DNA from: Deltaproteobacteria bacterium
GTDB lineage: Bacteria > JAUYMQ01
Direction: 5' to 3'
DNA: 7,095 nucleotides
NCBI GenBank assembly: GCA_030698575.1
Contig: JAUYMQ010000076.1
Location: 1-7,095, forward strand
Both the position numbers and the translations under genes were made by a program. Numbering within the stretch: position 1 is the stretch's first letter; each line of letters opens with the position of its first letter. Of this stretch, positions 3,797-6,370 are shown in pieces. The notes under the pieces are model-generated. The model ran no database searches, was not told the origin of the DNA, and was given only the letters and a program-made list of their open reading frames with translations.

Positions 3797-3832
3797 AAGA
3801 GCCCCGGAGCGACGCTCCGGGGCTCTTGTTTT
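3797..3832. terminator. Bidirectional intrinsic terminator between convergent genes
   Basis: A perfect 14-bp stem (3797-3810 with 3814-3827, arms starting AAGAGCCCCGG) closes a 3-base GAC loop. On the plus strand GTTTT follows the stem; on the minus strand the stem is followed by TTATGT after its own closing TT. It lies 19 bases after the acyl-CoA synthetase stop and 24 bases after the stop of the leftward gene ending at 3852, so it can serve both. Confidence 0.93.
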
Positions 3833-3851: not shown

Positions 3852-4790
3852 CTACTCCTTCGTCGCCTCGACGGTCGTGAGGGGCACAATCGTTCCATCC
3901 CGCGCGCTGATGCGGACGATGTCTATCATCCTGCCTCGCTTGAAGAAGGGGACGTTCCAGTAGGTTCCCTCGCCGCCCTGCCAGGCCGATGCGCCTACCT
4001 GCACCTCCCGGAGCGATTGCAGTATCCGAGGCCCGATCTCGTTCATCGGCAAGCGCACATTGCCGGCGCACCGCTGTTCGCTTCGCGCGAGCAGCTGGCC
4101 TGACTCAGGGTCCATCCGGAGGCCCAGCACGGGCAGGTTGTTGTGGAGAAGCGTCACGTGCAGTTCCTTGCAGCCGTTCCGGACGCGCAGGAACGCAGGC
4201 CCCGGACGCAGACCGCGCAGATAGAGCGCCGCGCGCATCCGCGCTGCCGCCGGGGAAACCGAGGGGCGCCCGTAGGCCGGTGTCCTCGTTGCGCCGAGAG
4301 CCCAGACGACTTGCGATGACGCGCCCGCCCCCGGGAGCACCGCCACGCGGGGCCGCTCGGGGGTCATGACGCCCGCAGCCGCTTCGAAGACCAGGCGGTT
4401 GCCGCTGCGCCCGGCGGAAGTGAGCATGATTCCGGCAACGATGGCGACGAGAAGGTAAACCGGCGCCGTTCGCGTCGACAGAACCATTGCAGGCCGGCGG
4501 AGCACGAGGCGGCAGGCAAGGAGCACGGCGAAGAGGACGACGGCCAGGAAGGCCATCTGGCGATGCGAGCCCATCAGGCCCGCGGGAAGTTCGAGGCCCA
4601 GAAGGCTTTGCTCGGCCAGGTAGCCGCTGTAGGCTGCAGCGCCGCCGCCGACCACGCCCGCCAGGAGGTTCCAGAGCCCCACGACATGCAGCGACGGCCG
4701 TCGAAGCGCGTACCCGAACGCATCGAAAAGCACGCTCACCAGGAGCAGCGCCAGAGGAAAATGGGCGATCGCGGGATGTATTCGTTGCAT
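3852..4790 (-). CDS. DUF2231-like membrane protein with C-terminal tandem PepSY-like repeats
   Basis: 312 residues, function unknown. The N-terminal half fits the DUF2231 membrane domain: it opens with IHPAIAHFP (4-12), has four hydrophobic helices near 8-29, 36-59, 78-97 and 110-126, His76 in a loop, and GNRLVFEAAAGV at 130-141, the usual closing motif of that family. After a linker of about 45 residues, the soluble part (about 185-307) reads as two PepSY-like units. Residues 212-234 (ending DPESGQLL) and 280-302 (ending ARDGTIV) align without gaps, sharing V, R and G plus many similar residues. PepSY domains usually sit outside the cytoplasmic membrane. Cys207 and Cys241 could pair. The start at 4790 fits the family's N-terminus, but its ribosome binding site is weak. 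The gene follows a sensor kinase gene after 110 bases, with a regulator-like repeat array between. Family call from motifs; the PepSY call is inference. Confidence 0.8.
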   Translation of the reverse strand: MQRIHPAIAHFPLALLLVSVLFDAFGYALRRPSLHVVGLWNLLAGVVGGGAAAYSGYLAEQSLLGLELPAGLMGSHRQMAFLAVVLFAVLLACRLVLRRPAMVLSTRTAPVYLLVAIVAGIMLTSAGRSGNRLVFEAAAGVMTPERPRVAVLPGAGASSQVVWALGATRTPAYGRPSVSPAAARMRAALYLRGLRPGPAFLRVRNGCKELHVTLLHNNLPVLGLRMDPESGQLLARSEQRCAGNVRLPMNEIGPRILQSLREVQVGASAWQGGEGTYWNVPFFKRGRMIDIVRISARDGTIVPLTTVEATKE

Positions 4791-4837: not shown

Positions 4838-4874
4838 GGCGCTGACACCATCATCTCAGCCGGGGGCTAAAGCA

Positions 4875-4904
4875 GGCCTTAGTGCGGTATTAGAAATGCC
4901 TTAG
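4875..4904 (-). promoter_or_regulatory. Three direct repeats at 11-base period, probable response-regulator binding site
   Basis: On the minus strand CTAAGGCA (4904-4897), CTAATACC (4893-4886) and CTAAGGCC (4882-4875) begin exactly 11 bases apart. One helical turn per repeat of a CTAA/TTAA-type core is the known geometry of OmpR/PhoB-family sites such as the PmrA box. The first copy overlaps the stop codon of the kinase gene, and the array lies 85-114 bases before the DUF2231-PepSY gene. A possible -10, GATGAT at 4855-4850, lies downstream. Repeats and period are seen; the binding protein is inferred. Confidence 0.55.
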
Positions 4905-6370
4905 CTTCCAGCGTTGTCGGGGCCCGGCGCAGGGTCGGGTGGTTCGTTCCCCACGCCGCCTTTTCGCGGGATGGGGAGGAATACGCGCATTCGCGTTCCG
5001 GAGGGGGGCTCCACGCTGGACCCGACCTCGATGCGGCCGCCGAGGTCCTTCACGATCTGCGCGCAGATTGCCAGGCCGAGGCCCGATCCCGCGAATTCGC
5101 TCCCGCGTGCCGTCGAGCCGCGGTAGAAGCGATCGAAGATGCGCGCGCGCTCCTCCTCCTCGATGCCGATTCCCGTGTCTCCCACTTCGACCCGCACCTC
5201 GTCGCCGGCCAGGGCGGCTGTCACCCATGCGCGCCCGCCGGAGCTGGTGTAGCGCACGGCGTTGTCGACAAGGTTGAGGAAAAGCTGTTTCAGCGCGTCT
5301 TCCGACGCCAGCACGACGAGTTCACCCGGCGCCTCCAGGTCGATCGTCACCTTGCGCCCGGCCGCCGCAATTCGCATCTGATCCACGACTTCGCCCAGCA
5401 GCGGCTGAAGCTTAACCTGCCGCCGCTCGGCGGAAACCTCTGCGTCGGCACGGGCAAGTGTCAGGAGCCCGGCGACGAGGCGGCTCAGACGGTCGACCTC
5501 TTCCTGCATGCTGGACATCACTTCGCGATACTCGCCGGGCGGGCGCTCCTTCTTCAGAGCGATCTCGAGCGATCCCTTCATGATCGAGAGCGGCGTGCGT
5601 AGCTCGTGCGACGCATCGGAGGTAAAGCGCATCTGGGCCCTGAAGGCTTCCTCCAGCCGCCCCAGCATCCGGTTCAGCACGCGAACGAGGTGCGCCAGCT
5701 CGTCGGCACCAGCCTCCTCCGGAAGGCGTTGCGACAGGTTACGCTCGCTGATCTCCTGGGCCGCGCGGGCGATCTCGTCCACGGGCCGCAGCGCCTTCTT
5801 CGTCAGGAAGTAGCCGCCCACGCCGATCAGCAGGAGAGCGCTCGCAGCGATCGTCGCGATCAGGCGAAAGAGCTCCGCCAGCGACGACTCCAGCGTCTGG
5901 AGCGAGAGGCCCACCTGCAGAACCTGGCCCACGCCGACAGAGCTTTCGATCGGCAGGTAGAGAACCCGGACGCGACCGCCCGGGATCCGGCTCGTCTCGA
6001 TGAGGACCTTCCCCTCCCGCGCGGCCGCCAGGCCCTCGGGGCTGATGGGGAGAGTGTCGAGGGAAAGGTTGGGCGGAGGCGAGAGGAGCTGCCCGTCGGG
6101 ATCGATGAGCTGAACGGAACGTGCGGCGCGATCAGCCCGCCCGTCCCCGTAACCCGTCCCCGGCGTCATCGGGATGTAGCCGCCGGTGGGATTGAGAAGC
6201 GTGGCCGCCTCGGTCTCGGCGATGGCCCACAGTGAGCTGTCGATGTTCCTGAGGAGGTTCCTTGCCATGCCCGCGTAAAGCAGCACGCCGGCGGCGAGGA
6301 GAATGGCTCCCATCACCAGCATGTGCCAGAGCGTCAGTCTGGATCGGAAGGTGCGCAAGGTCGGCCGCAT
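4901..6370 (-). CDS. Sensor histidine kinase (HAMP-HisKA-HATPase_c, CusS/QseC-like architecture)
   Basis: Inner-membrane sensor that autophosphorylates on histidine and passes the phosphate to a response regulator. The 489 residues are complete. Order: membrane helix about 14-35, periplasmic sensor region about 36-166, second helix about 168-189, HAMP about 190-243, then the H box SDASHELRTPL with phospho-acceptor His255. The ATP domain shows the N box NLVDN (Asn366 to Asn370), G1 box GDTGIGI (397-403), F box IFDRFYRG (411-418) and G2 box GSGLGLAI (428-435). All catalytic motifs are intact. A Pro/Gly-rich tail follows residue 470. The ATG at 6370 is the first possible ATG, GTG or TTG after an in-frame TAA near 6427, although no clear Shine-Dalgarno precedes it. 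Such kinases usually sit directly behind an OmpR-type regulator; none is present within the window on either side. Signal unknown; resemblance to metal-sensing kinases is only architectural. Confidence 0.95.
   Translation of the reverse strand: MRPTLRTFRSRLTLWHMLVMGAILLAAGVLLYAGMARNLLRNIDSSLWAIAETEAATLLNPTGGYIPMTPGTGYGDGRADRAARSVQLIDPDGQLLSPPPNLSLDTLPISPEGLAAAREGKVLIETSRIPGGRVRVLYLPIESSVGVGQVLQVGLSLQTLESSLAELFRLIATIAASALLLIGVGGYFLTKKALRPVDEIARAAQEISERNLSQRLPEEAGADELAHLVRVLNRMLGRLEEAFRAQMRFTSDASHELRTPLSIMKGSLEIALKKERPPGEYREVMSSMQEEVDRLSRLVAGLLTLARADAEVSAERRQVKLQPLLGEVVDQMRIAAAGRKVTIDLEAPGELVVLASEDALKQLFLNLVDNAVRYTSSGGRAWVTAALAGDEVRVEVGDTGIGIEEEERARIFDRFYRGSTARGSEFAGSGLGLAICAQIVKDLGGRIEVGSSVEPPSGTRMRVFLPIPRKGGVGNEPPDPAPGPDNAGS

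Follow-up and report, generated by a model that had tools for sequence, protein, structure and literature searches.

A rare 11-bp direct-repeat array behind a CusS-like kinase gene and its probable regulator in a deltaproteobacterial draft genome

A short word recurs at a fixed spacing where a sensor histidine kinase gene ends and the gap before a DUF2231 membrane protein gene begins, with both genes on the minus strand of the window, by which we mean the whole 7,095-nt stretch of DNA analysed. Do these repeats form an operator, and if so, which regulator would bind it and which genes would respond? The kinase gene (4901..6370) encodes a HAMP-HisKA-HATPase protein according to Pfam. Its best class model was that of the CusS/CopS class, TIGR01386, with a score of 252 bits that lies below the cut-off of 292.55. 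The DUF2231 gene (3852..4790) is the presumed target.

On the minus strand, positions 4904-4879 read CTAAGGCATTTCTAATACCGCACTAA, in which CTAA starts at 4904, 4893 and 4882 with a period of exactly 11, as a sequence-only reading of this DNA had reported. The first half-site (4901..4904) overlaps the kinase stop codon, the TAA at 4903-4901, and the second and third occupy 4890..4893 and 4879..4882. The purine/C-rich tail that the copies were said to share was not recovered, and the common core proved to be NTAA followed by T, G or C. The reported number of three was right for exact copies and incomplete for the array as a whole, which continues into a degenerate fourth half-site, TTTA (4868..4871) followed by G (TTTAG, 4871-4867), lying in the 11-bp register with three of four core bases fitting. 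Alternatively, this element could complete an inverted repeat, CTAAGG-CCTG-CTTTAG, as its second arm. The -10-like hexamer GATGAT (4850..4855), also noted earlier, is indeed present 12 nt after the fourth core, in the same register as the hexamers of three other arrays in this genome and with two mismatches to the strict pattern.

Dinucleotide shuffling of the window, repeated 1000 times, never produced the exact CTAA triple. When any AT-rich 4-mer and any period from 8 to 15 were accepted, a triple appeared in 18 of 20,000 shuffled versions of the surrounding 121 nt. The genome is a single draft of 4.13 Mb in 653 contigs, with about 65% G+C in the contigs examined. Only three exact triples were found genome-wide, versus about 0.0005 expected, together with nine exact doubles, versus about 1.2 expected; the expectations were computed from the CTAA frequency on the own contigs examined. 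A control with the pattern written backwards (word AATC, which is not rare in this genome) gave 25 doubles and no triple.

A genome search allowing one mismatch added an array on contig C154, reading TTAAGGGTCTT CTAATGAGCCC CTAAGCTTCAT TTAA. The four arrays of this genome, in the window and on contigs C373, C575 and C154, shared one layout, in which four half-sites spaced at 11 bp are separated by exactly 12 nt from a -10-like hexamer. This hexamer is GATGAT at the window, TATTCT on C373, TACGGT on C575 and TAAGCT on C154. When the genome was searched for three NTAA half-sites followed by 12 nt and TAnnnT, exactly three places matched perfectly, namely C373, C575 and C154. The window matched this pattern with two mismatches, a level at which a control pattern was equally frequent. 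Random placement across the genome, which the sequence-only reading had named as evidence against its proposal, was not what we observed, as the arrays with a promoter in register adjoin recognizable neighbors. The C154 array lies between the gene for a 222-aa OmpR-family response regulator of the CusR class and a Do-type HtrA/DegP protease gene, the C575 array lies upstream of gspC-like and gspD-like type II secretion genes, and the window array adjoins the kinase. The C373 array is located between the 3' ends of two converging genes and reads into a stretch of about 150 nt that holds no ORF of substantial size and closes with a strong terminator-like hairpin. The fold z-score was -3.15. This stretch probably encodes a small RNA (G000:C373 ~9500-9650, minus strand; L002 ~1345-1480), and it has a ACCUCCUUG motif. 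Two further exact doubles, on C64 beside lysis-like genes and on C397 beside an integrase-like gene, lacked a -10 at the matching distance and were discounted as chance occurrences.

OmpR-type DNA-binding domains occur only twice in this genome, on C154 and C511. The C154 protein (C154:18155-18820; Response_reg plus Trans_reg_C) scored best with the CusR/CopR class model TIGR01387, at 276.3 bits, just below the cut-off of 279.2. It is the genome's sole probable CusR/CopR-class response regulator, and the array lies directly behind its gene. The PhoB-like C511 regulator is encoded at a contig end in a locus of the PhoR/PstS/porin kind, beside genes for a PhoR-like kinase, a PBP-like protein and a phosphate-selective-porin-like protein, and this PhoR-like kinase is the nearest paralogue of the window kinase. 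Across the 4.1-Mb genome, 44 places resembled the C154 regulator, nearly all through the receiver domain alone. A search of contigs from foreign genomes recovered 80 orthologues of the C154 regulator at 54-63% identity. In 69 of these 80 loci a kinase matching that of the window was found. It almost always followed the regulator directly, and in most cases it matched over the greater part of its length. In 23 loci an HtrA gene was nearby. In its phosphotransfer helix (SHELRTPLSIMKGSLEIALKKERPPGEYREVMSSMQEEVDRLSRLV), the window kinase is similar to the foreign partner kinases and unlike the genome's own PhoR. Since the window kinase and the C154 regulator are both otherwise unpaired, and the only other OmpR-type regulator is PhoB-like and sits with a PhoR-like kinase, the two are likely to be natural partners. 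This elimination, the adjacency in foreign genomes and the helix similarity agree on that pairing, in line with the earlier suggestion that the kinase's own regulator is the one involved.

The foreign loci were fetched through the C154 regulator, and the array was found within the same gene cluster. In the gaps separating the kinase (or regulator) from HtrA, identical 4-mers recurred much more often at 11 and 22 bp than at other spacings, and TTAA pairs numbered 36 at 11 bp, with almost none at control distances. Counted across entire loci, CTAA/TTAA pairs gave a weak 11-bp signal that became clear once the count was limited to the post-kinase gap. We called an array when three half-sites scored at least 13 of 15 after the kinase stop, or after the regulator stop if no kinase matched. 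The sequence-only reading had proposed looking for the repeats upstream of orthologous DUF2231 genes. The orthologous loci contained no DUF2231 orthologue, but the same 11-base array followed the equivalent kinase stop in 24 of 75 loci from other phyla, versus 1.2% of mononucleotide shuffles and five loci on the reverse strand. All 24 arrays sit behind a kinase. Their consensus was ATTAa followed by three TTAAT at 11 bp (n=24), and TAnnnT followed the last core in 22 of 24, after 11 nt in 18 and 12 nt in 4. The array was missing behind the kinase in roughly two thirds of the orthologous loci, among them almost all of those from Nitrospina, Binatia and Geobacter.

A scan of the 80 loci revealed further sites beyond the training set, before the regulator in L120 and L132, before HtrA in L148, and behind the kinase in L114 and L150. 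At its threshold of 12, simulated sequence of equal size gave 10 matches, and most real sites scored above 20. One foreign genome (G064) carried four perfect full sites, one of which (C89) looked different in style, and another (G062) carried two. The foreign arrays came mostly from metagenome-assembled genomes, and the record titles of the orthologue loci named Deltaproteobacteria/Thermodesulfobacteriota, Nitrospirae/Manganitrophus, Omnitrophota and Bdellovibrionota. The layout is thus a conserved one, which recurs beside the matching regulator in this genome and behind equivalent kinases in several other phyla, where a protein-quality-control protease gene often comes next.

Of the four arrays in this genome, that of the window is the weakest. 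With a matrix trained solely on the 24 foreign arrays, C154, C575 and C373 scored 20.5, 20.3 and 19.5, while the next best site on the own contigs examined reached 4.0 and the best in 2 Mb of simulated sequence 5.4. In the strict promoter register the window site scored -1.2, which is background level. Relative to the strict promoter position, its three perfect half-sites are shifted one step upstream, and its fourth half-site and -10 are degenerate. These features speak for the main alternative, in which the window copy would be the decaying remnant of a regulator-kinase-array-htrA operon. That operon would have been split with an array retained in both halves, and the DUF2231 gene would now be transcribed only by read-through from the kinase gene, having no functional promoter itself. 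The foreign arrays lend this some weight, because they occupy the same spot just past the kinase stop, whichever gene comes next. Nevertheless, three perfect half-sites survive where CTAA is rare, and GATGAT lies in the right register, so we consider decay unlikely. A consensus terminator scan listed no terminator between the kinase and DUF2231 genes, which is compatible with a relic and a working promoter alike.

The DUF2231 gene may be regulated by the window array, as its position downstream suggests. Pfam identified the protein by DUF2231 alone (PF09990, 60.8 bits), with no PepSY match even at E 10, and the PepSY label given to it earlier stays tentative. Its relatives in the other genomes compared were remote and matched only the N-terminal part. 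A single-sequence structure prediction had a mean pLDDT of 43, too poor to use. Beyond the other end of the gene, where it converges with an AMP-binding ligase gene, a strong inverted repeat at 3798-3832 (GAGCCCCGGAGCGACGCTCCGGGGCTC) is followed by TTGTTTT. This is a likely two-way terminator, although the consensus scan did not list it.

The array might also be bound by another regulator, such as the PhoB-like protein on C511, as PhoB-type regulators likewise bind direct repeats with an 11-bp period. We judge this very improbable. The array-bearing foreign loci were retrieved with the C154 regulator as query and hold array and regulator in one gene cluster, and none of the four own arrays adjoins pst or porin genes. 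Moreover, the Pho boxes described in Desulfovibrio and E. coli differ in sequence, being CTGTCAT or (c/t)GTnAC (PMC3333781). A chance origin of the 11-base spacing, from the kinase stop codon (which does lie in the first CTAA) and a short A+T-richer gap, has a negligible probability given the shuffles of the window, the genome-wide rarity with recurrence beside a regulator gene, and the cross-phylum conservation.

Tandem half-sites about 11 bp apart just upstream of a -10 were present in the four own arrays and in the foreign arrays, most weakly at the window, and the C154 protein is a genome-encoded OmpR-type winged-helix regulator linked to the array. Judging from these sequence features, the array is probably the direct-repeat operator of this CusR/CopR-class, OmpR/PhoB-family regulator, with the window kinase as its partner. 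Upon a presumed stress signal, the phosphorylated regulator would bind as tandem dimers to the four half-sites, whose NTAAT/G core is repeated every 11 bp, close to one turn of the helix. With 11-12 nt between the end of the last half-site and the -10, the array would stand in for a -35 element, and the bound regulator would recruit RNA polymerase as a class II activator. In the window, this would place a promoter between the kinase and DUF2231 genes. Elsewhere in the genome, the regulator would most likely drive htrA/degP, gspC-gspD and the small RNA, which together would make up an envelope-stress set.

Two further features were seen next to foreign arrays. A small protein (MFFKLVMEGGHVGAGKSYEMVRYF...) of about 80-105 aa is conserved between the array and htrA in L100, L116, L117, L120, L145 and L157. 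Just downstream of array promoters in L114, L121, L124, L127, L130, L131 and L135, a stretch of about 125 nt is conserved (79% mean column identity) and apparently yields a transcript that codes for no protein. Anti-Shine-Dalgarno motifs (CUCCUU/CUUCCUUG/CCUCCUCCUUG) are repeated in it, and its intrinsic terminator shows compensatory changes. It looks like an undescribed small RNA under array control, and the small RNA candidates matched no Rfam family.

Tentatively, and with somewhat less than even confidence, we propose an undescribed envelope-stress regulon that spans Deltaproteobacteria/Thermodesulfobacteriota, Nitrospirota, Omnitrophota, Bdellovibrionota and the present isolated lineage, in which a CusRS-class pair acting through a four-half-site direct-repeat operator would drive HtrA/DegP and, in some lineages, an anti-Shine-Dalgarno-rich small RNA. 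Such a pair would be annotated as a heavy-metal system, which suggests that some of these annotations in the phyla concerned may hide an HtrA-linked envelope-stress system. The series ATTAR, three NTAAT at 11 bp, 11-12 nt and TAnnnT provides a sequence handle on the regulon of this widespread two-component system, which is apparently undescribed and belongs to phyla that are mostly uncultured, and a kinase and regulator that have become separated can be re-joined through their common operator.

No description of this array in this regulator class was found in the literature, a result that covers open-access papers and is thus weak evidence of novelty. Several known systems resemble parts of the arrangement. 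CpxAR is an OmpR-family envelope-stress pair that controls a DegP-type protease, and the system proposed here would work alike if our reading is right. However, the CpxR and CpxA models gave 127 and 160 bits, far below the CusR/CusS class, and the operator sequence differs. The CtrA site of Alphaproteobacteria is TTAA-N7-TTAA, is bound by an OmpR-family regulator and often lies over the -35. It shares NTAA half-sites and N7 spacing with the present arrays, but usually has two half-sites, and CtrA has another kinase and other targets; the CtrA model gave 177 bits on the C154 regulator. The PmrA box of enterobacteria (PmrA/BasR) is like the present arrays in half-sites and period: an OmpR-family dimer binds its head-to-tail half-sites CTTAAT and CCTAAG (TTTAAT-like), which repeat at 11 bp (PMC3973317). 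It has two half-sites versus four in the present arrays, and the PmrA model scored the C154 regulator at 187 bits, versus 276 bits for the CusR/CopR class. Within that class, the studied members of the CusR/CopR/CzcR/AgrR group bind inverted repeats of about 16 bp, such as ATKACA-N4-TGTMAT (PMC7380067, PMC11195947). The own arrays were direct repeats and lacked a 6-4-6 inverted repeat of this length, with CTAAGG-CCTG-CTTTAG a possible instance at the window only. AgrR occupies most promoters in the position of a Type II activator, and extra direct half-sites are present in some operators (PMC7380067). The C154 regulator would share its class with these proteins, whose operators are inverted repeats, in contrast to the four direct repeats found here.
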